Positions 35,761 to 62,186 of a DNA stretch of 64,000 bases are shown here, piece by piece. Under the pieces are notes generated by a model that ran no database searches, was not told the origin of the DNA, and worked only from the letters and a program-made list of their open reading frames with translations. The stretch is from Antennarius striatus. Taxonomy: Eukaryota > Chordata > Actinopteri > Lophiiformes > Antennariidae. The DNA lies in contig NC_090784.1 of assembly GCF_040054535.1 (NCBI RefSeq), positions 12,831,001-12,895,000 of the forward strand, in the 5' to 3' direction. The position numbers were made by a program, and so were the translations under genes. Position 1 is the first letter of the stretch, and every line of letters begins with the position of its first letter.

Positions 35761-35765
35761 TTCAG

Positions 35766-38040
35766 CCATGGCCTACCCTCTAAACAGCCATTACAAGTGC
35801 TGTGGAACAGCTTGCCCCGCCACGTGTCAGGACCTATTCACATCATGATCGTGCTCACTGCCTCTATGGAAACCTGCCAGTATGACCAAGGGTTTCTCCT
35901 GTTTGTGGCACCTGTGTCCCTCTGTTCCAGTGTGGCCACACTCATAATGGCTACCGTTACCATAGAAACCACACCTTCTGTCCTGATGAGAGATTCCCTG
36001 AGCAGCATGATTGTGAACCTCACAGCCCCAGACCAGGTGTGATTTGGATTTGTATAACCCAAACTTGATGCTCATCTTCTCATTAAACAAATGAAACCAG
36101 ACTTCTTTAAAAGTACTTTTAAATGTAACCTCCCATGTTCACTTTCAGATATAATTATGGCACCACCTACAGGTCGATGATGTCAGGAAGTATGCTTAAA
36201 ACATACTGTACACTTACATGTGCACCCACTGGTGCATGTACTTCTTGCCACAAGAGGTAAAATTAACTTTTGACTCTCCAGTAAATATGCTAATGCTACT
36301 TATGTCTCTATGTGTTAACTTCAACTCTGATCCTGCCTATGGCCTTATTGCAAATGATAGGCAAGAGTATCTCAAACCTGAGCATTTTGGAAAGGTCTGC
36401 TGGAGGGGGTATACACTTTGGTGTATGGAGGGCTGTCTAGGACGAAAGTTGTCCAAATTGTTCATCTGAGCATCCTATTCTGTGACCCAGAGGCATGCGT
36501 GAAGATTCTGAAAGTTAATGGACCATTCAGACACTGTCATGGCAAAGTGGACCCTTCCAACTTTTACAAGTATTGCATCAGTGACCTGTGTCTTCACAGA
36601 GGTCTGCAGTCCTCACCGTGTCACTTCCTGACATAGTATACTGCAGTCTGTCTTTCCCACAAGACTGTGCTTTATGCCTGGTAGAGTCTTCTGCTCTGAG
36701 TGTTGATGTGCTCTCAGCTCTGTTGTGTGAATGAATTAAATTATCTTCCACAATCATTATTGTTCTGTTTTCAAGTTAAGCATCATTGCACAACAAATGA
36801 AATATGGAGTGTTTGCAGATGCCACTTCATGTTCAAATTGTTATTGATTGTGTAATGTGAGTAAAAGAGATTATTTGCCTAGAAATCAGATATCTGCCTG
36901 TAGGTTTGTTTTCTTGTGTATTTATTGGAAGAAAATTCAAAATTCTAACAAGTTGCATATTGCAATTCCTAACTCATGCAATAGCTACTAAAGCATCAAC
37001 CTTTCAAGTGCTCTTGGACCACTAGATGGTACTAATGCATCACTAGTCAACCTTAACCTCTACAGCATTTTCCTGTCTTTATGTTCTATGAGCATGATGT
37101 CTCTCTATATCTCTGCAGACCTGTCCTGCCCCTCTTGTAACACTTGTAATATGAGCTCTAGCTGTACTCAGCTCTGCCTTGGCTGCCAGAATAACATAGT
37201 ACATGTGACTCAAAAAACTGGGAGCCGCCCTTGTTCAGCAGTTTTAGTTGACAGAGGACACTTCAGTGTCTCATCGTTTAACCTAGGATCACAACAACAG
37301 ACGTCAAAATGCAAACATGCAAACCCGGATCTCAAAGTGCCACACTGCTCCATTGCACATTTGATGATCATTGATGATCCCATTAACTCTTTTCATGAGA
37401 TCCTACTGTTTTCACAGAAGAATGTTGATGTGTGTCAGAAAAATAAATTTCACTTTATAGATTGAAACCACAGTTGGTTGATCTTATATCAGAGCTACAA
37501 AACTACATTAAGTTCACAAACCCTGACACAAAGCTAACAACCTGTTAACTTTGTAGAGACTGTAATGATAAGTTGTCAGGTGATCTGCAACATATCACGG
37601 TGGCTTTGAACTCAACCAGTATCCTCTGACATGCACTGCAACCTCCTCACCCCTCCCATGGGATCATTTTCATGATGTCATCGTTTAATGTTCCTACCAT
37701 ATTTGAAGGGGCAAGAGGGGTCGTTGACCTCCGCATGATCAACATGGTCTCTCGTAAATCTGACAATTTTTTAACATCATTTAAAGTTTATGTCAGCTGA
37801 ACTTCAAATGATTAAATGCTGTAAGATGTAGAGTTTAAGACAATGTCTGGTGTTATTTTAAGTGTCCTCAATTCAGCCTTAACAGTGTGCCAATGCTTGC
37901 TCCTCTTGCTGTCCTGAGATAAGCCAGATGGTGCAGTGCCCAGACTGTGAGGAAGGTTGCCAGTGTAATACTGGAAATGATTATTATGGCCATGTCTCTA
38001 CCAGCAGAGCAGTGTCTATGTGTACAGCGCAGCAGGAGAT
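35766..38040 (+). pseudogene. Decayed FCGBP/zonadhesin-like exons (TIL, VWD end, C8, TIL)
   Basis: (1) 35766-36041, after a cttttcag acceptor: AYPLNSHYKCCGTACPATC matches the TIL start in the intact gene ([11 protein letters not shown]...). It is broken by a TGA and two frame changes, then resumes as GTCVPLFQCGHTHNGYRYH. (2) About 36330-36635: a VWD end (EHFGKVCW...CMEGC), a stop, then NGPFRHCHGKVDPSNFYKYC and ISDLCLHRG, the centre of a C8 domain. (3) 37115-37190: a Cys-rich piece (SCPSCNTCNMSSSC), doubtful. (4) About 37880-38037: CANACSSCCPEISQMVQC then EEGCQCN, which aligns with the third TIL of the intact gene ([18 protein letters not shown]). The order and strand match the intact gene, which lies 8-10 kb downstream. 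Stops and frame changes make function as a full protein implausible. Confidence 0.8.
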
Positions 38041-39754: not shown

Positions 39755-41175
39755 AGGGCGCCCCTCCTTGAGTCGTCACCTTATCGTGGTGGAGGGGTCT
39801 GTGTGTCCCAATGATCCTAGGAGCTATGTCGTCTGGGGCTTTCTGCCCCTGGTAGGGTCACCCATGGCAAACAGGTCCTAGTTGAGGGACCGGACAAAGG
39901 ACAGCTCATAGACCCCCTAATGATGAACAAAAACAATGGACCACATTTTCCCTTGCCTGGACGCGGGTCCCCCCTCTGGAGCCAGACCTGGAGGTGGGGC
40001 TCGAAGGTGAGCACCTGGTGGCCGGGCCTGCACCCATGGCGCAGCCCGAAAGGACAATGTGGGTCCCCCTTCCCATGGGCTCACCACCTGTGGGAGGGGC
40101 CATAGGGGTCGGGTGCACTGTGAGCTGGGCGGCGGCCGAAGGCGGGGTACCGAACCCCTTGATAAGGGCTGCTCAGTCCCTGTACAACCGATGTCAGAGT
40201 TTGGTCCGCATTGCCGCCAGTTAATTGAATTTGTTTCAAGTGAGGGTTGGACTCCGCCAAGGCTGCCCTTTGTCACCGATTCTGTTCATAACTTTTATGG
40301 ACAGAATTTCTAGGCGCAGCTAAGGCGTTGAGGGTGTCCGGTTTGGTGGCCTCAGTATTGCGTCTCTGCTTTTTGCAGATGACGTGGTACTGTTGGCTTC
40401 ACCAAGCCGTGATCTCCAACTCTCACTGGAGCGATTTGCAGCCGAGTGTGAAGCGGTTGGGATGAGAATCAGCACCTCCAAATCTGAGACCATGGTCCTC
40501 AGTCGAAAAAGGGTGGAGTGCCCTCTCCAGGTTGGGGATGAGATCCTACCCCAAGTGGAGGAGTTCAAGTATCTCGGGGTCTCGTTCACGAGTGAGGGTA
40601 CGATGGAGCGAGAGATCGACAGGCGGATCGGTGCAGCATCTGCAGTGATGCGGACTCTGTATCGGTCCGTCGTGGTGAAGGAGGAGCTGAGCCAAAAGGC
40701 AAAGCTCTTGATTTACCGGTCAATCTACGTTCCTACTCTCACCTATGGTCACGAGCTGTGGGTCATGACCAAAAGAACGAGATCCCAGATACAAGCAGCC
40801 AAAATGAGTTTCCTTCGCAGGGTGTCTGGGCTCTCCCTTAGAGATAGGGTGGGAAGTTCGGTCAGCCGGGAGGGACTCAGAGTCGAGCCGCTGCTCCTCC
40901 GCATCAAGAGGAGCCAGATGAGGTGGCTCGGGCATCTGGTCAGGATGCCTCCTGGACGCCTCTCTGGTGAGGTGTTCCGGGCATGTCCTACCGGGAGGAG
41001 GCCCCGGGGATGACCCAGGACACGCTGGAGAGACTATGTCTCCCGGCTGGCCTAGGAACGCCTTGGGATTCTCCCTGGAGGAGCTGGACGAAGTGGCTAG
41101 GGAGAGGGAAGTCTGGGCTTCCCTGCTTGAGCTGCTGCCCCCGCGACCTGACCCCAGATAAGCGGAAGGAAAATG
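39755..41175 (+). mobile_element. Rex3 (RTE clade) non-LTR retrotransposon with internal deletion
   Basis: 39770-40160 carries the Rex3 5' region ('ccttgagtcgtcaccttatc', 'tggtggaggggtctgtgtgt', 'gatcctaggagctatgtcgt'). From 40240 the frame enters mid reverse transcriptase (VRVGLRQGCPLSPI), then LLFADDVVLLASPSRDLQ with the catalytic FADD. 40384-41013 continues with ECEAVGMRISTSKSETMVLS, VEEFKYLGVSFTSEG, TLTYGHELWVMTKRTRSQIQ and RWLGHLVRMPPGRLSGEVF, to the C-terminal LLELLPPRPDP in a shifted frame. The endonuclease and first half of the RT are missing, and stops and frameshifts remain. The 3' end is 'agataagcggaaggaaaatg' plus A-run. Confidence 0.9.
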
Positions 41176-42090
41176 AAGGAAAAAAAAAAGTTTCATGTCA
41201 AGTACAAATTGATTATCAGCTTATTTTTTCAGCTATGCTTGTCAGTATATAGTTTGGCGGTGTTATAACAATTTAAAATATGAATGAAAATTCTTCACCG
41301 CTGTAAAGTACTGTATGGACATTTATTGATAGTGTACGGAAATTAATTATATAAGGTAGTGTAGTGGAGTCTCCAGTCCTTCCTGTTGAAAGGTTTTGGA
41401 CATCTGATTAGAATGTCTCCCGGATGTCTCCCTTTGGAGGTTTCCTTGTTCAACTGGTAGACCCAGACCTTGCTGGAGTTCATACTTCGTCTGTTCTGGA
41501 CAAAGAAATGTTGCTGGCAAGAAGACGTTTACAATACCTGTCTTCATCTGAACAAGCTGAAAATTTCCAACTAAAAACATGGACACACCTTTCATCTAAA
41601 TCCATGGTATGAATAGAATAACTTCACCAGGCTTACTGTCGCCCTGCCCAGAGGCCTGTGGCCTTTGTGAAATTTACACTGATTAAATATTTGAGTATTT
41701 TTTTATTAGAAACCTGGGCCCAGTTGTATTTACTTTCTGTCACAAGTGATTTTTGCAATGCTACACTTCATGCAGTTATTCCTGGGTGTCACCCAAAGCA
41801 GCAGCAACCACCCTTTTAACCAAACAACTGCCAGTCAATATTGTTCGAATTTTATTTTATTTAGGACCTGATCAATCAGTAACATTGTCAGTATCCGCCC
41901 ATTATGCAAACTTTACAAGTTTGTATATCTTTGACGCATCAATTTTACAATAATTTTACAACTTTGAAGATCAGAATTTATACACAGTAATGATTCGATA
42001 TGTGCACCGAATGCAGGTCTGGGCAGGATAACTTTAAAATAAAATTTCTGATATAGTTAGTAATTACCTGTTAAACCTGAATTAATTTAA
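41176..42090. other. Intergenic sequence, no gene recognised
   Basis: 41350-41450 contains short relics resembling the Rex3 3' half ('aggttttggacatctgatta', 'gaatgtctcccggatgtctc'), so an additional RTE scrap is likely. The rest is AT-rich. Confidence 0.4.
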
Positions 42091-42094
42091 TTCA

Positions 42095-42370
42095 GTATTG
42101 CTGTTGCCTCACAGCAAGATGGTTCCGGGTTTGAATCTTGCTCTGTGTGGAGATTGTATATTTGGGTTTTCTCCAGGCTCTCCAGTTTCCTAACACCTCT
42201 AAGAATATGCATTTTAGGTGGATTGGTCGGTTCCAAATTGGTTTGAGGGTGTGCATGAATGGTCGTTCGCCTTTAGTGTGGTGGTGCAATGCGCTGGAAA
42301 TGTATCCAGACCATCACCCCGCCTCATGGCCGCAGTCTGCTGGGAGCTGGGATAGGCTCCAGCAACCCCA
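42095..42370 (+). repeat. tRNA-headed SINE copy, 5' end lost
   Basis: 'gttgcctcacagcaagatgg' and the B box-like 'ccgggtttgaatcttgc' are followed by 'ggttttctccaggctctcc', 'ttccaaattggtttgagggtg' and the tail 'agctgggataggctccagc'. Confidence 0.7.
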
Positions 42371-42529
42371 TTATTATATTAAAGGGTCAACATATTATAT
42401 TATATTGAAGTAGTGAAATGTTTACTGCTTTCTGTCATTTTTTAAAATAAGCTCAATACCAAATAAGCAAATAATTACAAGAAAAGAAATTTCCATGGCA
42501 TGGCATTAGCATAAATACATCCTGCAAGA

Positions 42530-43590
42530 CTCTTCTTCTCCTTTCTGCTTTTCCCTTCAGGGGTCACCACAGAGAATCGGTTGCGTCCATCTAACCCTGT
42601 CTTCTGCATCCTCTTCTCTCACACCAACTACCTTCATGTCCTCTTTCACTACATCCATAAACCTCCTCTTTGGTCTTCCTCTAGGCCTCCTGCCTGGCAG
42701 TTCGAAACTCAGCATCCTTCTACCAATATATTCACTATCTCTCCTCTGGACATGTCCAAACCATCTCAGTCTGGCCTCTCTGACTTTATCTCCAAACCTC
42801 TAACATGTGCTGTCCCTCTGATGTACTCATTCCTGATCTTATCCATCCTGGTCACTCCCAAAGAGAACCTCAGCATCTTCATCTCTGCTACCTCCAGCTC
42901 TGTCTCCTGTCTTTTCCTCAGTGACACTCTCGAGACCAAACAACATCACTGGTCTCACCACAGTTTTGTATACCTTTCCTTTCAGTTTAGCTGAAACTCT
43001 TCTATCACACATCACACCTGACACTTTTCTCCACCTGTACCATCCTGCCTGTACACGCTTCTTCACCTCTTTTCTACACTCTCCATTGCCCTGGACTGTT
43101 GACCCTAAGTACTTAAAATCCTCCACCTTCTTGATCTGTTCTCCCCGTAACCTCACTGTTCCACTCGGGTCCCTCTTATTTCACACACATGTAGTATGTC
43201 TTACTGCGGCTAACCTTCATTCCTCCCCTTTGCAGGACAAACCTCCACCTCTCTAGCTTCTCCTCCACCTGTTCCCTGCTCTAGCTACAGATCACAATGT
43301 CATCTGCAAACATCATAGTCCATGGAGATTCCTGTCTAACCTCGTCTGTCAGCCTGTCCATCACCATAGCAAACAAGAAGGGGCTCAGAGCTGATCCCTG
43401 ATGCAGTCCCACCTCCACCTTGAACTCCTCTTTCACACCTACAGCACACCTCACCACTGTCTTACAGTCCTCATACATGTCGTGCACCGCTCTAACATAC
43501 TTCTCTGCCACTCCAGACTTCCTCATACAATACCATAGTTTCTCTCTGGGCACCCTGTCATAAGCTTTTGCCAGATCTACAGGTTTTCTC
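42530..43590 (-). mobile_element. RTE-type LINE fragment (reverse transcriptase), minus strand
   Basis: Minus-strand frames read PREKLWYCMRKSGVAEKYVR, then VEVGLHQGSALSPFLFAMVM, then PWTMMFADDIVICS with the catalytic FADD (43553-43281). After a gap come IKKVEDFKYLGSTVQGNG and VYKTVVRPVMLFGLESV (43156-42839). The 3' part near 42550-42700 gives 'ggaagaccaaagaggaggtt' on the minus strand. Several frameshifts are present. The same family lies in the opposite orientation at 46.8-48.1 kb. Confidence 0.85.
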
Positions 43591-45475: not shown

Positions 45476-48400
45476 ATGAGGACCCTGTTGTTGCTTTGTG
45501 CATTGGGGGCCTCATTCATCTGTAAGCATATTTTTTCATTTTATTCTGTTGTTTGTTTGTTTTGTTTTTTTCTTTAAATTGTGGCAGATCTCACCTGAAT
45601 GTTTTTAATTTCTGCATGACATATATGCTCATCATCTGACTCAATTTGTCATGAAGTTTATTTAACCTGGCTAAAACATAGCAGTAGCAAAGAAACTTCA
45701 TTCTTTACTAACTAAAAAGTCCTGCAAACAATTAACAGCTATTAATTGTTTGCCGCCAAGGTGGCACGGTGGCGCAGTGGTTAGCGCTGCCGCCTCACAA
45801 CACGGCGGACCCGGGTTCGAGTCCCGCAGAGTTCACATGCTCTCCCCGTGTCTGTGTGGGTTCTCTCCAGTTTCTCCGGCTTCCTCCCATCTCCAAAAGC
45901 TTGATTGATTGGTTGATTGGCCATTCCAAATTGCCCGTAGGAGTGAATGTGTGTGTGAGTGGTTGTATGTCTTTGTGTGTGCCTCGCAGTGCACTGGCGT
46001 CGTGCCCGGAGTGTCCCCCGCCTCACGCCCTATGTCACTGGGATAGGCTCCAGCTCCCCCTGACCTGCTGCGGCGGATACAGCGGTGGTGATATGAAAAT
46101 GACTGACTGACTAGCTTACCCCAATTAGTCTCAGCAGCATTCCTTGAAATGTTACTCAGAATTTCTCAGTGGGACATGCAGCCAAGTGACTACCAAATTT
46201 CAAACTGTCAGCATCATCACTTTAGAGAATTATGGTTCAGCCACACCACAGGTTTTTTTTTGTGTGAAGCAGAGTCTTAAACAGATGAATAATGTGAGTG
46301 TACCATGCATAAAGAAAGCCGTTTAATTTTAAATGTCTTTTCTTGGGGATAGTATTTGCTGCTTTCAACAAGGGGCAGCGTAATCTAACTTCCCCAGGTC
46401 TAGAGTGAGCCAAGACAATATTTTTTTCACAGCAGAGGCACATATTGATAGTATTAACAGATATTTATATTTTTTCAATTAAATAATTATATTGTCTGTA
46501 CAAGGAACTTGCTGTCAAGAAAAGCCCAAGTGACTATAATTTTAACCTCTGATGCTAATGCTAGTTATCAAGTTTGAAAGCAATCCAACATTTGTTCCTG
46601 CTTTCTGAACATTGAAACACTCGTATATGTTTTTCTTTGGTGTCGTATTGATTCTTTGTATCATACATGAGGAAGTCTCAATGCCAAGTTCTGTGTTAGC
46701 AGTCTGAGAAGCCTTTATCTGTCTTGAACGTGTTACAGTGAATTTGGAGCGACAATAGCAGAGACTGGGTTAACGACTGCCATTAGTGTTCACCTACAGG
46801 GTGCCAGTGGAAATTGGACTACTATTGGTCGAAGAAGGAGAGGAGGAAAGTGTGTTCATAGGAAGAGAGACAAGAGGAACGCCAAAAGTATAGGGCTTAG
46901 AGTAGGGACGTTGAATTTGGAGCTATGACAGGAAAAGGTAGAGAGTTAGTTGATATGATGCAGAGGAGGAAGGTAGACATACTGTGTGTCCAGGAGACCA
47001 GGTGGAAAGGTAGCAAAGTCAGAAGTTTAGGAGCAGGGTTCAAGTTGTTCTATCATGGTGTAGATAGGAAGAGAAATGGAGTAGGAGTTATCTTGAAGGA
47101 GGAGTTTGTGAGGAATGTCCTGGAGGTAAAAAAGAGTGTCAGATAGAGTGATGAATCTGAAGCTAGAAATCTAAGGTGTGATGTCCAACATTGTTAGTGG
47201 GTATGCTCCACAGGTAAGATGTGAGCTGGAGGAGAAGGAGAAATTCTGGATGGACTTTGATGAAGTGATGCAGAGCATACCTAGAAGTTGTCATTGGTGC
47301 AGACTTCAATGGACATGTTGGTGCAGGAAACAGAGGTGATAAGGAGGTGTTGGGCAGGTTTGGTATCCAGGAGAGGAATGCAGAAGGACAGATGGTGGTT
47401 GACTTTGCAAAAAGGATGGAAATGGCTATAGTGAATACTTTCTTCCAGAAGAGACAGGAATATAGGGTGACCTATAAGGGTGTATGTAGTAGCACCCAAG
47501 TAGACTATATCTTGTGTAGACGGTGTAATCTGAAGGAGTTCAGTGACTGCAAAGTAGTGGTAGGCGAGAGTGTGGCCAAACAGCATAGGATGGTGATGTG
47601 TAGGATGAATCTGGTGGTGAAGAAGAGGAAGAGGGCAAAGGCAGAGCAGAGGATGAAATGGTGGAAGCTGAAAAAGGAAGAGTATTGCATTACTTTTAGG
47701 AAGGAGTTATGACATGCTCTGTGTGGTCAGGTGGTGCAGGATAGAACAGGTAGAGAAAAGTGTCAGGTGTGATAGAAGAGTTTCAGCTAAAATGAAAGGA
47801 AAGTTGTACAAAACTGTGGTGAGACCAGCGATGTTGTTTGGTCTCGAGACAGTGTCACTGAGGAGAAGACAGGAGACAGAGCTGGAGGTAGCAGAGATGA
47901 AGATGCTGAGGTTCCCTTCGGGAGTGACCAGGAAGGATAGGATCAGGAATGAGTACATCAGAGGGACAGCACATGTTAGAGGTTTTGGAGATGAAGTCAG
48001 AGAGGCCAGACTGAGATGGTTTGGACATGTCCAGAGGAGAGATAGTGAATATATTGGTAGAAGTAGCTGAGTTTTGAACTGTCAGTTAGGAGGCCTAGAG
48101 GAAGTCCAAAGAGGAGGTTTATGGATGGAAGTTTTCATGTTCTGCCCTTGTCTGCATAGATTTTCTGATTTTCTCCCACCAAAAACATGTGATTTATGTA
48201 ATACCAAATTGTCTGTACATGTGTATGTTTGTCCTTTGTGTGGCCCAGTGATGGATAGATGGATGGATGGATGGATGGATGGATGGATGGATGGATGGAT
48301 GGATGGATGGATGAATAGTCGTCATAGCAAAAACTAAGTTTGCCAAGAATACATTTTTGGAAGTTTCCAAAACACCAAAAACTCAGCAGGATAAACTATT

Positions 48401-51400
48401 CTTGAGGAGGCATTAAGAAAGGGCAGTTGCAAAGAATGGAACAAGGCACACGCTAGAAAAAAGTTACAATTAATGTAATACATTCACAAATTCATTTTCC
48501 TCTACATTTTTGGAGTTCCTCTGAAATATGGTTTCATAACTCACTACTTCATTTTAAGCACCATGAAGTCATCTTCATTTGACTCTTTGTTTTTCTGTTT
48601 CTCCTTTTCCCCTTCTTCAGGTCCAGCTAGTGCTGGAGTGCTAGGGAGGGAGTTTGTTGTGACATTCATGGAGAATTTTAAGTGGCACTGGCCCTATAGT
48701 GGTTCTCATCTTCAGATATACATCACTGCTGTTCAGGCTAATACAAAAGTGACTGTCCAAGTTCCTCCTTTAAAGTTTAGGAAAGAAAAAACTCTAAATG
48801 TTGGAGAAAGGGTAATCATTGACCTCCCCAAAGAAGTGGAGTTGTCTGGCAGCAAAAAGTCCCCCAACACAGTACACATTGAAGCCTCAGCAGATGTGTC
48901 TGTAAGTTCCTTGAACTTCAAAAAATTCACAGCGGACAACTCATTGGTGTATCCCACATCTGAATGGGGCACAGAATATTTCATCCTTACACCAACTTCC
49001 GGTCCTTTTTCAACTTGTGGAGAGTTTGCTGTGACAAATGGAAAAGAGCGCAATAACGTGGAGATTTTCCCTAAAGGCATAATCAAATTCCAGGGCAGTA
49101 TCTATGGGAATCACAAAAAACTGGTAATAGCCCTGGAGCCATATGAGAGTGTCCAGATTCAGAGCCACTATGATCTATCTGGCACTAGAATTACCTCCCA
49201 GCTCCCTGTTGCTGTTCTAACAGGTCACAGTTGCACCTGGCGCTTCTCAAAATGTAATCACGTCTATGAACAGCTACTGCCAGTAGGCAAGTGGGGCTCC
49301 AAATTCATGGTGCCTCCCCTGAGTTTCCAGACAAAATATGACCTTGTCTTCATTATAGCCTCTCAACCCACTCAAGTGAATGTCAGAAATGGTCCCAGGA
49401 AAGAAGTTATTCATTTGTCCAGGGGAGATGTGAAGGAGTTAAGATACATCAAGCCTCATACATTATACATTGAGTCGAATCATGGCATTCAGGTTATCAT
49501 GCTATTCAATGGACGTACTTATAACATATTCAGATACATTGACCCTTTCATGATGACCATTCTTCCCACGGACCGCTTCTGCACCTCCTATTCACTAGAG
49601 GCTCTGAACGACTTTGAAAACAAAGCCCTTATTGTAGCAAAGACCAACGCAATTGAAAGGTTGCTTATCGATGGTAGGGAGCTGCCCCGTGACATCCGGT
49701 GGAATGCGGTTCCTGAAACAGATTTCTCTTGGGTGGAGATATCCTACACTAAAACATCTGGCAGTAGTAGACATACAATGTCCACATCTGGTCCTCCCTT
49801 TGCTCTCTACGGTGTAGGAGTCAGCCAGATGAATGGCTATGGTTCCCCAGCACAGTGTTTACGGCCAGGTAAGTCCATAAATTCTAGATGTTTAAGAATT
49901 TGAATTATCTTATTCTTGGTGGAGTGTTCTGTTAGAGAGAGGGGAACTGTAATGATTTGTGAATAAGCTGTGTATTTTTCACTTTTTATCAGGAGCTGGT
50001 TCCCCGAACTGCAGCAGCATCACCTGTAGTCCTAATGAGGTGTGTGAGATGAAAGGTGAATACCCCTCCTGTGTCCCCAAACCAGTGGGGGAGAAGCCTG
50101 GCACTTGCTGGGCCATAGGAGATCCACATTATAGTACTTTTGATGGGCGCCGCTATAACTTTATGGGCACCTGCACATATATCATTGCTAAAAACTGCGG
50201 AAAGGATGATCATCTTCAAGATTTTGAGGTCCTTGCCCAAAATGAGAACAGAGGAAATCCCAGGGTGTCATATGTTGGCCTGGTCACCCTAAGGGTGTAT
50301 GGCCTCACAATCACAATAGTTCGGTCAGAAACAGGTCGTGTGAGGGTAAGGTTTTATTTTTCTCTTTGTCAATTTTTTTTTCAAATATCCCAATTTAAAA
50401 AGTAATGTTAAGTTCAGTTGATCAGAAATATCTTTGTATCAATTCAAAAAATTATGACTGATGCACTGTAATATTTCTTTTATCTTTTGTTCAGATTGAC
50501 AACAGCCTGTCAAGTTTGCCTGTGCGCTTGAACAACGAAAAACTGTTTATGTTTCATAGTGGCCGCTCTGTGGTCATTGAGACTGAATTTGGTCTGACCG
50601 TTCGTTATGACTGGGAACATTCTCTTGTGGTGACTCTGTCTGGCAGTTATGCCGGTAAGACTTGTGGGCTCTGTGGTAACTTCAATGGCAACCCCAATGA
50701 TGATTTCACCACACCCTCTGGCACACTGGCCAGTGGGGTTGTAGCCTTTGGGCAGAGCTGGAAGGTACAAGGGATTGTGAAAGATGCTCTGTGCAAAGAT
50801 GACTGTGTGGGTGGTTGTGATAGATGTGAACACAGCCTAATGAAGAAGTGGGAGGGTGAATTGTTTTGCGGGCTCATTACACGTATATTAGATGGACCAT
50901 TCAGAAAATGTCATGCCATCATTGACCCACAAATATATCTGGAGAACTGTAAATATGATGTATGCATGGGAGGAGGTCTTACACTTTTCCTGTGCAGAGC
51001 ACTGGAAGCTTACACTGACGCCTGCCAGATTGCAGGGATTGAGGTCTATGATTGGAGGAAGATTGCTCGATGCCGTAAGTAGTTATTTTATTTGTGTGCT
51101 TTAAATTTATGTTTTTTGTAAAAAACTCTATTTCTTGACAATTTGTGCTTCCAAGCATTTACAAGACATAATTCTTTCTCTTCTCTCTAAAGCTGTTAAA
51201 TGTCCAGCCAACAGCCATTATGAGCATTGTGGCAGTGCCTGTCCTGCTACTTGTTCTGACCCTGATGCTCCATCCAAGTGCAAACATTCATGTGTCCAGA
51301 CTTGCACTTGTGACAATGGCTTTGTTATGAGTGGAAATGAGTGTGTACCTGCCGCTCGGTGTGGTTGTACCCATGACGGTCGATACATCCCTGCTGGAGA

Positions 51401-54400
51401 ATCATTCTGGTCTGACAAAAACTGTCAGAAATGGTGTACATGCAAAGGAGGAAACAGGGCTATAGAGTGCCAAAATAAAGGCTGTGGCAAAGGAATGAAA
51501 TGCCAGGTGGTTCAGGGAATAAGAAAGTGCCAAGCAATCTCTGAAAGCACCTGCCATGCCACAGGTGACCCCCATTATAAGACCTTTGACAAAAAAAGAT
51601 TTGACTTCCAAGGCACATGTGTATACCAACTGGTTGGACTGTGTTCCAAGAGAACAGATTTGGTGCCCTTTCAAGTACTGGTACAAAATGATCACCGGGG
51701 CACAAAGGCAGTTTCCTTCACCAAGTTAGTGCAGATCAAAATTCACTCCATCAATATTATCATTACAACTACTCACAAGGGCATGATCCTGGTAAGAGAA
51801 ATGCATTTATTTATTTTCTTTTGGTCAATTTCATATTCATATATTGTTATATTTGGAATTTGAATATGCTGTTGTTTGCTCTTCTAAAGGTAAATGATGA
51901 GCTGGTCAACCTGCCTTCAGACCTGGATGGACAGATATTTGTACGTAATAGTGGAACATTTGCTGTTGTCACAACAACCTTTGGTCTTAAAGTAGCATTC
52001 AACTGGATCAGTGCTGTGTTTGTAACATTGCCAAGCAATTACATGGAAGCTGTTTGTGGGCTCTGTGGAAACTACAATGGCAATCCCAAGGATGATATGA
52101 TTCCAAAGAATGGTGGTACACCTGTATCCGCTGCAAAATTTGGTTCCAGCTGGCAAGTGGCCAAGATCCCAGGCTGTGTTGAAGGCTGTAAAGGAAAGTG
52201 TCCAGACTGCGACATTAATCAGAAGATTCAGTATGAAAAAGGAGATTTCTGTGGGATCTTAAGTGACTCCAAAGGACCTTTCCGTGACTGCCATGCTAAG
52301 TTGGACCCAGAGGGTTACTTTCAAGACTGTGTCTTTGATGTGTGCCTGTATAAAGGCAGAAGGGATGTGCTGTGTCAGGCTATTACGTCATACACATCTG
52401 CATGCCAGGCTGTGGGGGCCAAAATATACAGCTGGAGAACCCGTGACTTCTGTGGTGAGAAATTCAATCATTCTTATGAAAATATTTACATGAATTGTAA
52501 ATTGAACATAAATTATGTGATGTAGAACTGTGCTGAAGATGTATAATTTTAATCATATACAGAATAAAAAATTGACATTGTCCTCTTGTTTACAGCTCTC
52601 AAGTGTCCAGTCAACAGCCACTATGAAATTTGTCCAGCGTCCTGTCCTGCATCTTGTTCTAGTCTGATCTCTGCTCAAGACTGTCAAGATTATTGTACGG
52701 AGAGCTGCTCTTGTGACGAGGGCTACATCCTCAGTGGAACAGTCTGTGTTTCACTCTCAGAGTGTGGCTGTCTGTATGAAGGCCGTTACTACAACAGTGG
52801 CCAAGTGTTTTATCCCAATCAACAGTGTCAAGAGGAATGCCAGTGTGTCCAAAATGGAGAGGTGAACAGTAATGTTGATAATCACAAAAAACCTTAGTAG
52901 AAAAAATGTTTAAGGATTTTAAAACACTTTCCTTTTGTTTCTCAGGTTGTCTGCAAGCCATTCACATGCGGCCCCAATGAGAAATGTGAAATTCAGAATG
53001 GTTTTCAAAAATGCCAACCTGTTGGTAAGGCTGTGTGCAGGGCCTCTGGGGACCCCCATTACACCTCTTTTGATGGGAGAAAATTTGATTTCCAAGGCAC
53101 CTGCACCTATACATTAACTAAGAGCTGTGGCCTGGACGGCACCCACCTCACGCCCTTTTCGGTACGGGTGGAAAATGTGAAGTGGGACAGGATGCGGGGA
53201 AAAAAAGTGGTTTCTGTCACCAAGCTGGTTGCTGTCCTGGTTTACGACTACACTCTCATCCTGACTAAAAATACGTTTGGAGTTGTGGTAAGCAATGACA
53301 CTTCTTTCGAATAAAGTTTGATATTTGAAACACTTAATTCATTTAATATGTGGAGCTGAATTGTAAAACTAGCTTATGAATCATATTTTTGATGCTCTTA
53401 TCATTATTTATAATTCTTAAAATAATACTTCTGACTCTTTTTCAGGTAAATGGAATATTTAACAATCTTCCTCTGAATCTTAATGATGGTGCAGTGATGG
53501 CCTTCCAAGAAGGCAGGCGTTATGTTATTTCAACAAATTTTGGACTGGTGGTTACATATGACCTGGTTTATGATGTTACAGTCACAGTTCCCGGAAATTA
53601 TCGTGGTAAAGTCTGTGGCCTGTGTGGCAATTATAATGGAAACAAAAATGATGACTTCCAAATGCCCGACAAAAAACTCGCCAAAAATGTCAATACCTTT
53701 GGAAATAAATGGAAGGTCAATATTCCTGGAAGATGTGGAAATGGCTGTGCAGGGCAAAGCTGTCCCAAATGTAAACCAGCTCACACGGCTGTGTTTTCAA
53801 ATTCGGATTACTGTGGCGCTGTTACAGCACCTAAAGGTCCTTTTGCAGACTGCCATAGTAAAGTGAACCCACAGCCATACTTTAATGACTGTGTGTTTGA
53901 TTTGTGTGCTTCCAACGGTGATGAAAAGGTGCTATGTGATAGCTTAGCAGCCTATGCCTTCAGTTGTCACTTGGCAGGAGTAGATGTCAAAAATTGGAGG
54001 ACAGCTTCATTCTGTCGTAAGTGAAATTCCACCAAATTCCACTCTCATTCTCATATTCCATACTGTTTTTATTGTACTGTATTTATTAGTGGCAATAAGA
54101 CCTGTTCCTTGTCTTATAATTTATTTCAGCAATTAAATGCCCAGCCAACAGTCACTATGAGGTGTGTGCAGACATATGTTCCTCATCCTGTGAGGGCCTC
54201 ATAGACATTGTCCAATGTTCCACCAGCTGTACAGAGGGCTGTGAATGTAATGAGGGCTTTGTATTCAATGGACAGTCATGTGTACAAGTGCATGAGTGTG
54301 GCTGCTATGATGGTGGAAGAACTTTTAAGGTACGGTTCAGTATCTCAGTTGATGCACAAATTCCAGCTTGTCAGAATCTCAGTAGTTCATGCAATATCCT

Positions 54401-57400
54401 TAACAACATTCATGCTTACATAAGATTAAGTTGCCAATGAAGGCATGAAATGTGGATATAAGCAGCTTGCTTACATTTATGTTTGTTTTTTTAATAAACT
54501 GAGATAATAGGCAGTAATTTAACTGCAATGTGCCTTGTTTATTTTTTTTCCTTATCTAATGAGCCTGATCTATGTCACAGCCTAATGAAGTGGTGTATGA
54601 GAAAGACTGTAACACCAAATGTACCTGCACTCCAGCAAAAGGTCTTGTCTGTGAAGAGCATTCCTGCCCTGGAGGCACCAAATGCTTGATCAAGAAAGGA
54701 ATTAGGGCATGTTACAGCACAGGCAAGACACAAATACTGTCGATATGTATAAGCTTTAACAATAACATATAATGAATTCTCAAAAATCAAATAAATTCAC
54801 AATTTATTTTTCCTACTGATGTTCCTTTTGTGTTCATTTCATCTAGATCCTTGCAAGGATGCCAATTGCAGAGTGAAAGAGAAGTGCCGTGTTGAGAAGG
54901 GTGAAGCTCTCTGTGTGCCTGAGTACACAGGGATCTGTTGGGCGTGGGGTGACCCCCACTACCACACATTTGATGGTTACAACTTTAACTTCCAAGGCAC
55001 CTGCAAGTATGTCATCTCCAAGACATGTGGAAATCTGGCTGGTCTAGTGCCATTCTCAGTCACTGAAAGGAATGATAACCGGGGAAACACAGTCGTTTCG
55101 TATGTCAGAGAGGTGGATGTGGATGTTTATGGGTACACCATCACAGTCCAAAAGAGCCAAATTGGTCGAGTCATGGTAAGATGTTACTCTATTGACCAGT
55201 CTGTTTGACCTGTATTTCAATTTGCATACTGTAAACATTGTTTGATTACATTCCTTCAGGTGAATGGGGATCTGTTAAATCTTCCTGTGGAACTAGGAGA
55301 GGGTGAAGTGTCAGTGTTTCAGCATGGTCACACTGCAATGATAAAGACAGACTTTGGCCTCATTGTTTCCTATGATTGGAACTGGGAACTGGTCATTAAA
55401 CTGCCGAGCAGCTACTATGGTGCTGTATGTGGTCTGTGTGGGAACTTCAATGGTAACTCTCGTGATGAGCTCCAAAATCCTGAGGGCAAAGCTGTCTCTT
55501 CAGTGATAGAGTGGGGCAAAAGCTGGCAAACACCTGAACAGAATAATGACCATCCTTGCTGGGATACTTGTGAGAAAAATTGTCCTACTTGTGATGGCAT
55601 CCAGAGTAAGATCTATGAGACTGAGGCTTTTTGTGGGGCCCTCACAGCTAAGTCTGGAAACATTTTCAAGAAATGCCATGTAAAATTAGACCCCCAGGCT
55701 TTCATGAACAGTTGTGTATATGATATGTGTATGAATGGGGGAGACAAAAAGATGCTGTGCCAAGCACTGGCATCCTATGATAAGCAATGTCGTGAGCATG
55801 GAATTATCATTCGGGGCTGGAGGAAAAAGTTCAACTGCCGTGAGTGCAAGAAGCATATTTGAATAAAACAATTTTGTCAGATAGGAAAGTATTTGTTTGT
55901 TAATCCTTTTAAATCTAATTTCTATCCAGCAATGAACTGTCAGCGTAACAGCCACTATGAAGACTGTGCCAGCCCATGCCAGCCATCCTGCCCCTTCCCT
56001 CAGAAAAAGGAGATATGCATTGGTGCCTGCGTAGAGACATGTGTTTGTGATAGGGGCTATGTCCTCAGTGCAGGTGTCTGTGTGCCGGCCAAAACATGCG
56101 GTTGTTCCTATCAGGGACACTACTATAAGCCAGGCCAGCACTTCTGGGCCGATGAGGCTTGCAGTCGCCTATGTGTATGTGATACCACTTTGAAGTTGGT
56201 GACGTGCCGCATGGCCTCTTGCGCAGCTAATGAGCAGTGCACCATACTGAATGGTGAGCGAGCCTGCCGAGCAATCAGTCACGCTACATGCTCAGCCTCA
56301 GGTGACCCACACTATCGGACTTTTGATGGCCTCAGGTTTAACTTCCAGGGTACATGTGAATATCAGCTGGTGGGACTATGCTCTCAGCAACCTGGGCTAG
56401 TCCCCTTTAAGGTGACTGTGCAGAATGACAACCGGGGAAGCAAGGCCGTGTCCTACACAAAGACAGTCATCTTTTCCATATATGGCGTTACCCTCACCAT
56501 CAGTAGAGAACATCCTAACAAAGTACTAGTAAGTATGCATGTGGAGGTATGGATAATGTGATTTGATTAGAGATTCAATAGGTAATATAACACCGTTTTC
56601 ACATGTCATTTTGCAGAGAAAAGTAATAGGGCACTGTATGTAGCTACAGCATTAAAAATAAATACATGAAAGAAGAGCCACATTCAAATGAGTGCATGAT
56701 AACACCTTCTTTCATTATGCTTAATTTGAAATTCCCCTTTCTCTTCTACATATATATTTAATTGCATATTAAAATTTTGATCCGGGAAGACATAATTAAA
56801 CTAAGCTTTTACTGCACATTGGAGTGGATTAGCAAGGGCAGCAGATTTATTAAATCTATAATCTCCTAAAAATATTCTTTACTCCCTCATTTTCTGTTCA
56901 TCAGGTCAACGGACAGCTTGCCTGGTTACCAATGGTTTACAGTGCAGATCTAGTAGTTTTACTCAGTGGTAGGACAGCTGTAGTGGACACTGCCGCTGGT
57001 ATTAAAGTGACCTATGACTGGCGGAGTACTGTGACTGTTACTCTGCCCAGCAACTACCAGGGTGTCGTCTGCGGTCTGTGTGGCAACTACAACAGCAAAG
57101 CTCAGGATGACCTGGCCATGCCAAACGGACAGCTCGCTAAAAATGGAGACAAGCTGGGGGACAGCTGGCAGGTGGCTGTGACACCAGGCTGTTCATCAGT
57201 CTGCCAGGGGCCATGGTGCCAGATCTGTTCAGAGTCTCAGAGGAAAGAGTTTGAAGCCCAGAGGCACTGTGGTATTATTGTTAACAAGCTGGGGCCTTTC
57301 AGAGATTGTCACAAGCATGTGGACCCTGCTCCTTACATGGAAGACTGCGTGTATGACGCATGTCAGTACCTAGGCCACCAAGGTACAGTCTGTGATGCAG

Positions 57401-60400
57401 TGGGAGTCTATGCCCAAGCCTGTCAGAGCCGGGGTATCAAAATTTACTCGTGGAGGCGAGAAGACTTCTGTCGTGAGTTTGTTTTCTTTGAGTCACTTGT
57501 TTTGTTTTCTTCATTTTATTTTATTTATTTATTCAATTTATTTTTCTTCTTTCCAGACATTTTATTACAACATATTTCACTTTCATCAGTATTGAAACAT
57601 CATCAACAACATCCGAAAAGAAAAAAAAACGGGGTTAACGGGTAGAAGCCATTGGCTTGTAAGATTCCCGTCCCCTAAATTATCAACAAAACATCTCTCT
57701 CATTAGAATATGTAATCAACAAACTCAGACATTAAAAGTCTTCAACCAGCTCATATATTGAATTTTGACAGATGTTCATACCCTTATCCACTTCCAAATA
57801 TTAGCCTTTTACCCTAGAGTATAACCATGTTTACATTCTTCATAGGAACACAAGGTTTGTGAACATCATGGATAGTCAAAACAAGAAGTTGACCTTGCCA
57901 GTGTTCTCCATAAGAATATAATGATCATATTGACCTCTTTCAGCAGACATTGTTTATACAAGAATTAACCAGTTTGTTGCAGACACTTTAACAGTTTCAC
58001 ATGGTATTATATTGTCAAAAGACATCAACATGCTCTTTAAAGTCTCAAAGTTAATGTTATCCCATGTTATCACAAATACATGTTTTTGTTTTTGTTTTTT
58101 TTGTTCATTAGTCCATGTTTCTGACATCAATGATGTTGATTTTTTTGGACTGTTCCATGAAATGCTTGACGTGTTTAAAATTGTAGAGGTCCAAATATTG
58201 AAGTGACTCTGTTGTACAGATCTTTGCTGTAGTAACAATTCTTGTCCGTCTTTATTGCTCATATTTCACCAACTCCCCTGCACTCCTGATCATCATTGTT
58301 TTCATCTGATGGCATGACTGAATTTTATCAGCATTGCAGGTGGTCTCCTACCTCTAGATGGTAATGGGTAACATGTCTCAATCTGGTCCGGATCTAGTTA
58401 TCTCCACATCCCTCAGTTGAGAACTCACTTGTTGCTCCATAGATTCGATGTCAGCGCTAGCCACAGCATTTCTGTAATTCCTCGGCTTGATTTTGATTCC
58501 AGTGATGATCACATAATTTATGGGAATGCTTTGTTCCAAATAATCCATTCTTTGTTGTCCCTGTTCCAAGACAACAATTTTTCGGTCTTTTTCATCCATG
58601 TCTTTCTGCATTTTCTTCATTTTGTCCTTCATTTCTTCCAAGGCGTCTAGCAGCGGTTTTAGCTTTTCTGACCAACTTTTTATCAAAGTCACTCCCTAAC
58701 TTATCAAAGTTGCTCTTTAACTCACTCTTTAATTCTTTCATAGAGACCATCTGGTCTTTAGTATCCTCCGATTTTCCTTTTGGTTTCGTCATTTTACAGA
58801 GAATAAGTGAGAGTCAGTCTGGGTATGAATTAGAGAGATAGCGACAACAGGAGACAGAAGAAAGACGTCTGCTCCCATTGACTTAACCATTCTCTTGTTT
58901 TTGTGTCCATCTTCCCATGCTATCCTACAGCAATGGCTTGTCCAGCTAACAGTCATTACACCCTGTGTGCCATTGGTTGTCTTCCCACCTGTGCCACTTT
59001 AACTGACCTGACCAAATGCAACAGGCCCTGTGCAGAAGGTTGTGAATGTGACCAAGGATATCTGCTGAGTGGGGGTACCTGTGTGCCCGTGAGAGACTGT
59101 GGTTGCTCTTATGAAGGTCACTACTACAGGAAAGGAGAGGTCTTCTACCCTGAAAACAAGTGTGTTGAAAAATGCACCTGTGGGGTCAATGGTGCAGTGT
59201 CTTGCAAAAAAACCAGGTGTCGTCCAGGAGAGACCTGTAAGATTATAAAAGGAGTGCAAGGCTGCCACCCTGAGGGATATGGCAAGTGTGTGGCCTCTGG
59301 TGATCCTCACTATATTTCCTTTGATGGAAGGAGGTTTGATTTTCAGGGTACCTGTGTCTATGTATTGGCCAAGACCTGTAATGAAGGTGATCTGATTCCA
59401 TTCACTATAACTCAGGGCAATGAGAAGTATGGGAATGGAAAAGTTGCTGTTACAAGGTCAATAGCAGTGACAGTTTATGGCTACATCATTTATATCCAAC
59501 AGAGAATGCCGTGGAAAGTCATTGTGAGTTTAACTTCTAAAAACTTTCAACAGTTTAGTTTGAATATGTATAATGATTTTTCTTAAAATGGTTCTGGTCT
59601 CATTCTACAACTGCCCAGGTGAATGATGAGCTTGTCACCCTGCCTCTTTCCCTGGATGATGGGCGTCTTAAAGTCACCCAGGAAGGTCGCAACATAATTG
59701 TCCGAACAGATTTTGGACTGACAGTCCTGTATGACACCGTCTATTATGTTGAGGTGATTGTGCCATCATCATACCAGGATAAAATGTGTGGTCTTTGTGG
59801 TAACTACAACAAGAAAACGATTGATGACTTCAGACTGCCCAGTGGCAGAGCAGAGAAAGTTGTTGAAAATTTTGGGAAGGCTTGGGTGGTGGACCTTCCT
59901 GGGAATGTGTGTGGGGGCTGTGGAGGACAGTGTCCCTTATGTGAGGAGGCCAAGGCCACCTTGTATGGAAAACCAGAACACTGTGGCATCATCAGTGAAC
60001 CTAATGGGCCTTTTAAAGATTGTCACAGTAAAGTTGACCCAGCAGCATATGTGTCTCATTGTGTGTTTGATGTCTGCGCTATGGATGGCAACAAAGACAC
60101 TCTGTGTGACAGTGTCCAGGCCTATGCTCTCGCCTGCCAAAGCGCAGGAGTGCGGATACAGCCATGGAGGAGTAATTCCTTCTGTCGTACGTTACACACA
60201 CTAGCACTGTCCACGTGTTTTATACATTATAGTGCATGTGCACTGTCTTATGAATGTTCTCTTCTCCCGCAGCGGCTTCTTGCCCTCCACACAGTCATTA
60301 TGAAGTGTGCGCAGACACCTGTGGTGGGTCATGTGCTAGCTTTATTTACCCAAATACTTGTTCTAGAAGCTGTTTTGAAGGATGCCAATGTGACGTAGGC

Positions 60401-62186
60401 TTTATTTTTGACGGATTCCAATGTGTTCCCATGGACAAATGTGGGTGTGTGCACGCTGGCAGATATCTGACGGTAAGATTTTACCAAAATTTGTCTTAGC
60501 TATCATGTATGTAACTCACAAGATAACACGCACATTCTCATAGCATTTTCACATTCATGAAGATGTAGGAGATCCAATTTGCACTAATTAGAAGAAATAA
60601 TTTTATGCTTCAACTCATCTATGTTTCCAGGTTGGCGAAACAGTCGTGAGCAATGACTGTAAGTCCAAGTGTGTGTGTCAAGCCTCTGGTCTGGTGAAAT
60701 GTGAAAAGTTTTCCTGTGTCGGTGGAGAAGTTTGTGGTATAAGAGATGGGCTCAGAGATTGCCATGTCAAGCAGGGCCACTGCAGTGTAAATGAAGTCGG
60801 TCATCTCACTACCTTTGATGGCATGACTGGAGCTATAGGCATTAAAGGTGCATTTGAGGTGGCCTCTCTGTGTGATGAGGCCGCAAAGCTGTGGTTCCGT
60901 GTGGTTGTGGATGTCAGAGTCTGCAGGAGAGGTGCACGTCCCGCTGTTGCTACGGTATATGTGTTCTTCAAGGAAACCACCATCGCTGTGAACAGCCAAC
61001 ACGTGGCATGGGTGAGAACAATGGGGAGAATAGAGAGCAACTTAAATGCTTAATCTTGTTAATGCCTTCATGTCGTTTTTTCTAAAAATTCTAATCGTTT
61101 TTTGTTCTTCTCTTCCATTATTCACATCATCCAGGTTAATGGCAGGAAAGTGTCTCTTCCCAGCAAAGTGATGAGTGATCTGACTGTCCATATCTCAGAG
61201 AGGTCTGTGATCATTGAGAGGGCTTCCGCTGTGAGGGTCACTTACTCCATTTCACAAGAAGTTATCATCACCATTGACAGTAGTCTATCTAGTAAAATGT
61301 GTGGCGCCTGTGGAAACTACAACAACAACTCCAAGGATGATATGAAGACTGCAGATGGAACAGTTACCACTGACGTGTCTGTGATTGTTGGCTCTTGGAC
61401 TGCTGGGGACTTTTCTAAGTGGTGAGGATTTGTAGCAGTGTTGAATTTCCTCTGTATAAATTTAACAGGCAAAGATATAAAACTACATTTCAAACATTTA
61501 TTATTTCAATAATAAGTTAAAAAAAAAAAACTCAAATATTTTAATCCTCTATTCTAGATGTAGTGGAAGCTTTAAACTTGAACCCTTTATTATGCAATTT
61601 GCAAACTTAATATAACCACTGAAATAATCAAGTACAGATCAGCATTAGATGGGACGGTGTTGTGACCATTCAACCGCTTATTCTCTTAACAGCAAGAACT
61701 AAACAAGGACTCCACTGAGTCCTTTTAAAGGAAAGAGAGTGTGGTTTTTAATTGCATTTGGTCCAATTTAATTAAGAAATGCCAGAGAATCCCCTATGGT
61801 AATTACTGATTAAAAAGCAGGTGAGGCTGACAGACATGGCCATCAAAAGCTACCAAGCTTGCAATCCAATCACCGCTTGTCATCCAAGGACACTTAAGAC
61901 TCATTGGGGTGCAATATTAATTTGAGCCCTCATCTTTAGTTTTTTTTTCATCCTTAAGTTGATCCCCAAGAGAACCCAGTTTGTGCATCCTTATTGCTCT
62001 CTTCATTCAACATACGTAGAAACACAAGAAATGTACCTAAAGAATACTGGCTATTCCTGTGTGTTTGCAAGTGAATAACATGGCTTTCAGCAGTATTGTT
62101 TGTAATCTCTGAGATGTCTGTGTTAATGTAACTTTATTGCTCTATGACGATATTTTTTTTGTTTTTTTCATTTCAGTGGTCTGTAG
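45476..62186 (+). CDS. fcgbp: FCGBP-like secreted mucus protein (IgGFc-binding domain + 7 VWD), 21 coding exons
   Basis: Exons: 45476-45521, 48621-49868, 49993-50345, 50495-51074, 51193-51791, 51890-52454, 52596-52861, 52946-53287, 53446-54016, 54130-54329, 54581-54722, 54847-55175, 55260-55839, 55930-56528, 56905-57472, 58931-59523, 59619-60186, 60273-60472, 60631-61011, 61135-61421, 62177-62186. The total is 9027 bases, 3008 residues, with every junction in phase. Order: signal peptide ([14 protein letters not shown]); IgGFc-binding N-terminal domain (about 20-430); six VWD-C8-TIL units; a seventh VWD without C8. GDPH at 474, 867, 1254, 1672, 2065 and 2453; CGLCGN in six VWDs and CGACGN in the last. 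Known for the family: FCGBP is secreted by goblet-type epithelia, is cleaved at GD|PH, and associates covalently with mucus. Human FCGBP has 13 VWDs; this protein has about half. Zonadhesin and tectorins share VWD/TIL domains but not the N-terminal domain, so FCGBP-like is preferred; fish carry several such genes, so exact orthology is open. Confidence 0.93.
45754..46115 (+). repeat. Best preserved tRNA-headed SINE, in FCGBP-like intron 1
   Basis: The head 'ggtggcgcagtggttagcgc' gives an A box, and ggttcgagtcc at 45814-45824 is a perfect pol III B box (GGTTCGANTCC). The body has 'ctccccgtgtctgtgtgggt', 'ccattccaaattgcccgtag' and 'gtcactgggataggctccag'. The tail is 'gcggcggatacagcggtgg' ending in (tgac)n at about 46100-46113. 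The head folds like a tRNA but is the SINE promoter, not a functional tRNA gene. Confidence 0.85.
46790..48115 (+). mobile_element. RTE-type LINE with endonuclease remnant, in FCGBP-like intron 1
   Basis: 46925-47146 reads [20 protein letters not shown] then [19 protein letters not shown], the N-terminal part of an apurinic-type endonuclease. 47281-47712 continues (GADFNGHVG in a shifted frame, [20 protein letters not shown]). The RT core is deleted, and 47775-48067 resumes with [20 protein letters not shown] and [16 protein letters not shown]. It is the same family as the minus-strand fragment at 42.5-43.6 kb (for example VYKTVVRP versus LYKTVVRP). Frameshifts make it inactive. Confidence 0.87.
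48120..48245 (+). repeat. SINE body fragment
   Basis: 'gttttcatgttctgcccttg', 'gattttctcccaccaaaaac' and 'aaattgtctgtacatgtgtat' follow the SINE body order. It leads directly into the GGAT tract. Confidence 0.55.
48249..48313. repeat. (GGAT)n microsatellite
   Basis: About 15 tggatgga units, the usual tail repeat of the SINE/RTE elements in this window. It lies 300 bp before exon 2 of the FCGBP-like gene. Confidence 0.95.
48621..49868 (+). CDS. Exon 2: IgGFc-binding N-terminal domain in one 1248-bp exon
   Basis: A single open exon between a ttcttcag acceptor and a gtaagt donor, phase 1 at both ends. It opens with [15 protein letters not shown], the family's typical beginning, and includes [20 protein letters not shown] and [19 protein letters not shown], hallmarks of the domain. 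In mammals this region gave FCGBP its name through reported IgG-Fc binding; whether the fish domain binds any antibody is not shown by the sequence. Encoding the whole domain in one phase 1-1 exon makes it a shuffleable module. Confidence 0.92.
49993..54722 (+). CDS. Block A: VWD1-C8-TIL1, VWD2-C8-TIL2, VWD3-C8-TIL3 (exons 3-11)
   Basis: Exon lengths are 353, 580, 599, 565, 266+342, 571, 200 and 142. VWD halves are split by phase-0 introns just before V/I-N-D/G (for example [18 protein letters not shown]). TIL exons begin in phase 1 with (A/P)xKCPxNSHYE. Motifs: [27 protein letters not shown] and [24 protein letters not shown] or [11 protein letters not shown]8 centres GPFRKCH, GPFRDCH and GPFADCH. 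Exon 11 carries a short Cys-rich linker ([17 protein letters not shown]) and ends at a GC donor. Exons 7 and 8 are one TIL-VWD module interrupted by an 84-bp intron. Confidence 0.92.
54847..60472 (+). CDS. Block B: VWD4-C8-TIL4, VWD5-C8-TIL5, VWD6-C8-TIL6 (exons 12-18)
   Basis: Exon lengths 329, 580, 599, 568, 593, 568 and 200 parallel block A. Exon 12 ([19 protein letters not shown]..., [14 protein letters not shown]) is the counterpart of exon 3 ([18 protein letters not shown]..., [14 protein letters not shown]): both start in phase 1 and carry a Cys-rich lead before the VWD. GDPH occurs in all three VWDs. C8 centres: [22 protein letters not shown]. Intron 15 (57473-58930) is enlarged by a minus-strand LINE fragment. 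Confidence 0.92.
57520..58870 (-). mobile_element. Antisense non-LTR retrotransposon fragment (ORF1 part) in intron 15
   Basis: On the minus strand, 58792-58592 reads [20 protein letters not shown], and 58692-58378 (shifted frame) reads a coiled-coil stretch [20 protein letters not shown], then [19 protein letters not shown]. This is the ORF1-type protein of fish non-LTR elements (coiled coil then nucleic-acid-binding part). About 58.8-58.87 kb would be its 5' leader. 57520-57690 looks like 3' RT/UTR debris ('aagattcccgtccc' complemented). Most of ORF2 is absent. The exact clade is not assigned, and the ends are approximate. Confidence 0.65.
60631..62186 (+). CDS. Terminal VWD7 without C8 (exons 19-21), GDPH lost
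   Basis: Exon 19 holds the Cys-rich lead ([18 protein letters not shown]) and the first VWD half. Where the other units have xxGDPHYxxFDG, it reads [13 protein letters not shown], so GDPH is EVGH (2838-2841). Exon 20 holds the second half, including [16 protein letters not shown]. Exon 20 either stops at once (…DFSKW, TGA 61423-61425) or splices at 61421 with donor gtgagg to exon 21 after tttcatttcag, giving …DFSKCGL and stop TAG at 62184-62186. The spliced form restores the final VWD cysteine and is followed by ATTAAA, so I prefer it. Confidence 0.8.

Follow-up and report, generated by a model that had tools for sequence, protein, structure and literature searches.

Two copies of a three-unit VWD block in the FCGBP gene of the fish Antennarius striatus

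Genes composed of many similar VWD units might grow by single units or by whole blocks of units, and which of the two applies is the question raised by a locus of Antennarius striatus (contig C9:12831001-12895000, in a genome of 548 Mb and 42 contigs). This stretch of 64,000 nucleotides, referred to as the window and numbered from its first letter, holds FCGBP, a gene for a large secreted multi-VWD mucus protein, on its forward strand. In the gene's layout, an exon for the IgGFc_binding domain is followed by six units of VWD, C8 and TIL and by a bare seventh VWD (VWD7) that lacks C8 and TIL; unit 1 and VWD7 were assigned by Pfam, units 2-6 via alignment. Exon 2 (E2, 48621..49868, 1248 bp), delimited by PF17517 and its splice sites, lies ahead of the VWD units and matches this IgGFc_binding family with 232.8 bits (E 7e-69). 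Genome-wide, PF17517 matches strongly in the window gene only (220.8 bits), its second match, at C9:24098425, being weak; the genome therefore holds one full FCGBP gene. The exon behind the weaker match (C9:24098104-24099291, E 1.7e-15) has no VWD close by among the matches listed, and the frame that follows it is lectin-like by eye. Gel-forming mucins and VWF were ruled out as closest solved relatives by the FCGBP chains 8rde_A, 8r0t_A and 8r0t_C, which outscore the best VWF and mucin chains against the fish sequence. Zonadhesin was likewise rejected, as the exon ahead of the first VWD holds IgGFc_binding only, with no MAM or mucin segment there. Six of the seven fish VWDs carry the motif GDPHY, while VWD7 reads EVGHL. 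Self-cleavage at GDPH into fragments that remain held together by disulfides is described for FCGBP in the cited sections of two reports (PMC10880436, PMC10206775). By analogy, the fish protein is most likely FCGBP-like in this respect, with its fragments disulfide-held in mucus.

The exons were placed from splice signals and an open joined frame, and the resulting model spans E2-E20, with the frame open across 2989 aa. Unit 1 comprises E3 (49993..50345, 353 bp), with a Cys-rich lead and the N half of VWD1, and E4 (50495..51074, 580 bp), with the C half and C8. Unit 2 follows in E5 (51193..51791, 599 bp; TIL1 and VWD2 N half) and E6 (51890..52454, 565 bp; VWD2 C half and C8). TIL2 has an exon of its own, E7 (52596..52861, 266 bp), ahead of unit 3 in E8 (52946..53287, 342 bp; linker and VWD3 N half) and E9 (53446..54016, 571 bp; VWD3 C half and C8). 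TIL3 is divided between E10 (54130..54329, 200 bp) and E11 (54581..54722, 142 bp), which ends the first block (block I) with a GC donor. Block II starts in unit 4 with E12 (54847..55175, 329 bp), where a second Cys-rich lead, forming a doubled linker, precedes the N half of VWD4, and continues with E13 (55260..55839, 580 bp; VWD4 C half and C8). Unit 5 lies in E14 (55930..56528, 599 bp; TIL4 and VWD5 N half) and E15 (56905..57472, 568 bp; VWD5 C half and C8), unit 6 in E16 (58931..59523, 593 bp; TIL5 and VWD6 N half, without an inner intron) and E17 (59619..60186, 568 bp; VWD6 C half and C8). E18 (60273..60472, 200 bp) carries the first part of TIL6, and E19 (60631..61011, 381 bp) its second part together with the N half of VWD7, which is without GDPH. 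The C half of VWD7 lies in E20 (61135..61421), after which the gene either continues through a splice at 61421 or meets an in-frame stop within a few bases.

Among the 18 introns between E2 and E20, 17 are of the GT-AG type; the remaining one, intron 11 (54723-54846), is GC-AG and lies exactly at the join of the two blocks. DNA likeness between introns at matching places was sought at a threshold of 1e-3 and was absent in five of six pairs, the sixth giving a match of 15 bases. Intron 15 (57473-58930) is 1458 bp long, compared to 84-376 bp for the other 17. Open frames on its reverse strand resemble, by eye, the coiled coil of a LINE ORF1; Pfam assigned no family to two of these frames at E 0.01. 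Upstream of the gene, open frames at 46901-48070 and 40324-43180 of the window likewise look, by eye, like pieces of LINE endonuclease and reverse transcriptase.

A preliminary description of this DNA had proposed that the gene expanded by whole three-unit blocks, arguing from matching exon lengths and phases. The lengths agree with the splice-site exon models and the phases are as described: phase 1 marks the entry to each exon that opens with TIL or a lead, and phase 0 the split between VWD halves. The alignment of E3-E10 with E12-E18 holds in order but not exon for exon, since E7 and E8 together answer to the single E16 through the gain or loss of an intron, so that eight exons face seven. 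The counterpart of E11 is the 5' part of E19, which continues into VWD7. Block I from E3 to E11 measures 3618 bp, or 1206 codons, and runs from phase 1 to phase 1, as would suit the addition of a block without loss of frame. However, single units run from phase 1 to phase 1 as well, and phase therefore cannot tell growth by blocks from growth by single units. Nor can the lengths serve as the deciding evidence that they had been taken for. When all 15 ways of pairing six units are ranked by summed length differences, three of them, 1-4/2-5/3-6, 1-4/2-3/5-6 and 1-4/2-6/3-5, come out level whether A exons, B exons or both combined are used, which shows only that units 1 and 4 belong together. Up to this point, units might thus have been added singly, with like exon sizes due to a common fold (the B exons all measure 565-580 bp) and an order blurred by exchange between units.

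More importantly, the protein sequences themselves pair the units in the block order, beyond chance, and settle the question. The pairing 1-4/2-5/3-6 ranks first of 15 in all six segment sets compared (whole unit, VWD N half, B exon, VWD C half, C8 and TIL region; four of them disjoint). Over whole units, identity is 46.2, 50.0 and 50.0% for 1-4, 2-5 and 3-6, respectively, compared to an average of 42.1% among the remaining 12 pairs. Individual segments show exceptions. Unit 4 is the closest match of both unit 3 and unit 6 for the VWD N half, and unit 3 that of unit 1 for the VWD C half; for C8, units 2 and 5 lie equally near to one another and to unit 6, and the TIL region of unit 4 is nearest to that of unit 5. 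When the exons were searched against the locus by tblastn (16 loci, E3-E19 with E7 and E8 taken as one), the block partner was the best other match in 12, with E10, E12, E16 and E19 differing. A tree of the six fish units recovers exactly the pairs 1-4, 2-5 and 3-6 (92/91, 91/88 and 98/97), as the preliminary description had predicted, and the opposite pattern, with neighbouring units closest, is absent. VWD7 was left out of this and all further trees. A peculiarity of exon structure follows the same period of three, in that TIL3 and TIL6 alone are split after an exon of 200 bp.

The best evidence is the doubled linker, a scar of the duplication that marks the block border. Measured between the CGC of a TIL and the GDPH of the VWD that follows, the six fish joins are, in order, 68, 67, 92, 68, 67 and 65 residues long and contain 10, 10, 14, 10, 10 and 10 Cys; a doubled linker thus occurs at the join of units 3 and 4 and at no other. 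The additional residues ahead of unit 4 form a second Cys-rich lead, which resembles the one in E3 and ends in CWAWGDPHY where unit 1 has CWAIGDPHY. A copy that starts at the intron before E3 and is placed behind TIL3 accounts for unit 4 alone having a doubled linker. Taken together, the pairing by sequence, the six-unit tree and the linker confirm that the gene holds two copies of a three-unit block, and the claim of growth by whole blocks and not by single domains is upheld. Against all four of these features, the split of TIL3 and TIL6 included, a history of single-unit additions is very improbable.

The same architecture is found in 8rde_A, an FCGBP chain of known structure (2587 aa) with six D units and a terminal VWD. 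We take this chain to be mammalian and, because its D4 differs from chain 8qci, which we take for human D10, to come from a mammal other than human. Most pieces of the fish protein match the unit at the same place in 8rde_A: fish unit 1 scores 337 bits against D1 and 323 against D4, E13 scores 187 against D4 and 157 against D1, and TIL3, whose first part in E10 also has TIL3 of 8rde_A as its best match, scores 101 against TIL3 and 84 against TIL6. Running against orthology by place, D2 is a slightly better match than D5 (92.8 and 87.4) for the N half of fish unit 5. The chains also differ in that unit 6 of 8rde_A reads ANGGLHY where the fish has GDPHY. The linker before unit 4 is doubled in both proteins. 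Before units 2-6 of 8rde_A, the same distances, worked out from alignment coordinates and leaving aside the join to VWD7, are 69, 67, 92, 69 and 68 residues, that is, 92 compared to 67-69 at the four other joins. Moreover, fish E11 and E12 align with the doubled linker of 8rde_A free of gaps over 71 columns, 34 of them identical. With unit number, order and join in common, the duplication is probably no event of the fish lineage, and a single duplication before the two lineages parted accounts for the shared linker.

The alternative is that the block was duplicated separately in the lines of the fish and of 8rde_A, starting from a three-unit ancestor such as the form of the toad, whose FCGBP has 1774 aa in four repeated units, with the last VWD at 1606-1774, according to the cited section of PMC10206775. 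This protein, which looks to us like a one-block form, fits such a history; it could be a loss, a paralogue, an incomplete sequence or the unduplicated state. Overall likeness also leans slightly in this direction: the two fish blocks are 48.7% identical to each other, compared to 47.0% between fish and 8rde_A for block I (46.1% for block II). In a concatenated quartet of two blocks from two species, the tree that pairs orthologous blocks is best under both models; the tree of separate events is 11.8 or 8.2 log units worse, depending on the model, but retains p-AU values of 0.087 and 0.075, whereas the crossed tree is rejected. The informative sites divide into 25 for orthology, 21 for separate events and 9 for the crossed tree. 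By unit, the pair 1/4 supports orthology, while 2/5 and 3/6 favour neither history.

Trees of the individual units favour orthology without proving it (f denotes fish units, m those of 8rde_A). With all 12 rows, f1+m1 (93/91) and f4+m4 (88/84) pair within a 1/4 group (94/92), which is the only one to form a single clade, as m5+m6 (76/95) breaks up 2/5 and 3/6. When 2/5 and 3/6 are each held together, the AU test gives p 0.33 each. After omission of the fast-evolving m6, all three groups become single clades (95/91, 93/91 and 95/91), with f1+m1 at 95/92, f4+m4 at 79/79 and f2+f5 together at 51/31. With five other VWD units added (17 rows), f1+m1 (99/93) and f4+m4 (88/88) pair once more, f2+m2 (45/77) and f5+m5 (43/78) appear, the whole 1/4 group reaches only 69/74, and m6 stands beside a unit of a VWD gene on C21 (38/23). 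Units 3 and 6 are not cleanly placed in the two-species trees, and the grouping f6+m3, which would suit separate duplications, recurs across the tree sets (89/94, 93/92 and 76/90). Other VWD genes of the genome (units on C21 and C13) were tried as a root, but their branches are too long to settle it; in a nine-row tree with three such units, f1 and f4 stand apart. The VWD loci on C18 and C23 were searched but kept out of the trees. In further AU tests, trees constrained to keep units 1 and 2 of both species in one group are disfavoured (p-AU 0.030), as are those with all block I units together (p 0.0017) or with m1+m4 (p 0.041); f1+f4 gives p 0.069 and f3+f6 p 0.054. The recurrent pairs f1+m1 and f4+m4 in three trees, the value for m1+m4 and the doubled linker, of identical length at the identical join, make separate duplications improbable. 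Trees and scar thus suggest that one duplication likely preceded the parting of the lineages of fish and 8rde_A.

The explanation in which we place good confidence overall is that of an FCGBP gene shaped by one old tandem duplication of a three-unit block via exchange in phase 1. The ancestral gene would have encoded the IgGFc domain, a lead, D1-D2-D3-TIL3 and a terminal VWD, and a single tandem duplication would have copied the whole block (1206 codons in its present first copy). Most simply, the phase-1 intron that precedes the lead (today's intron 2) could have undergone unequal exchange with a site immediately after TIL3, which would have placed a second Cys-rich lead behind TIL3; since both ends lie in phase 1, the frame would have been kept. 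The exon layout, the pairing of units, the scar common to both proteins and the number of GDPH sites are direct observations; unequal exchange at phase-1 sites, its date and the function are inferred. A coding remnant of VWD7 in intron 11, which would indicate a break inside an exon, yielded no tblastn match at E 10. A new splice site at the join would fit both the GC donor of E11 and the fact that E19 is undivided. A wider reading, which we put forward only tentatively, is that the three-unit block, bounded in phase 1 at both ends, serves as a module that can be used repeatedly, so that FCGBP would change size in whole steps only (one block in the toad, two in the fish and 8rde_A, four in human). 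The doubled linker before D4 would then preserve the first step as a fixed mark that can be dated, and the fish join may have been respliced within what was once a TIL-VWD exon; the GC donor of E11 and the undivided E19 would be traces of this.

Growth of FCGBP by three-unit blocks is already known from human, and such a pairing from chicken, and the present case is not new in kind. The cited section of PMC10880436 describes nearly identical repeats in human FCGBP, three in number and each made of three D assemblies, that of PMC2588610 a 15.7-kb tandem array with three copies more than 95% alike, and that of PMC10320979 an FCGBP insertion in T2T-CHM13, of 15.8 kb by the coordinates listed. Human and fish genes are alike in growth by whole three-unit blocks; however, the human copies are near-identical and hence recent, whereas the fish blocks, at 46-50% per unit, are old. 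For a chicken FCGBP-like gene, VWD trees give the groups 1/4 (for which that paper shows no data), 2/5 and 3/6, as in the fish, with many nodes poorly supported (PMC1325057, in the section cited). In contrast to the fish gene, the chicken model includes MAM domains, and that section names no block event or join. In the titles and abstracts listed, with few subscription journals covered, no 1-4/2-5/3-6 event is stated for fish FCGBP. The locus documents the exon-intron structure of a two-block FCGBP gene, and the linker of 92 aa and 14 Cys before unit 4 offers a simple mark for dating the first block duplication in other vertebrate genomes. As FCGBP length varies between animals, and as human assemblies differ by a block-sized insertion, the old three-unit step bears on how the protein changes in size.

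Just upstream of FCGBP on the same strand, window positions 33439-38000 contain broken pieces of a second FCGBP/VWD-type gene: TIL pieces at 33439-33621, 35765-36017 (in several frames) and 37886-37993, and a piece of VWD C half and C8 with a stop at 36278-36681, which is most like E6 and whose C8 matches Pfam at E 5.6e-10. These look like a decayed tandem copy. In zebrafish zonadhesin, the copies of a multi-VWD block are identical in exon sizes and bounded in phase 1, much as in the fish FCGBP; as described in the section cited, its block differs in comprising 17 exons with two VWDs and a fragment, in copies that are 85-87% alike, and in a gene with MAM and mucin segments (PMC1325057). A zonadhesin-type gene also lies on the reverse strand of contig C23 of the present genome (C23:13111946-13189955), with MAM and TIL at its 5' side by Pfam and a PT-rich stretch by eye. 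It has eight similar VWD matches about 8-11.5 kb apart, and self-alignment yields stretches as long as 10.8 kb, with identities between about 91% and more than 99%; this block expansion is much more recent than that of FCGBP.
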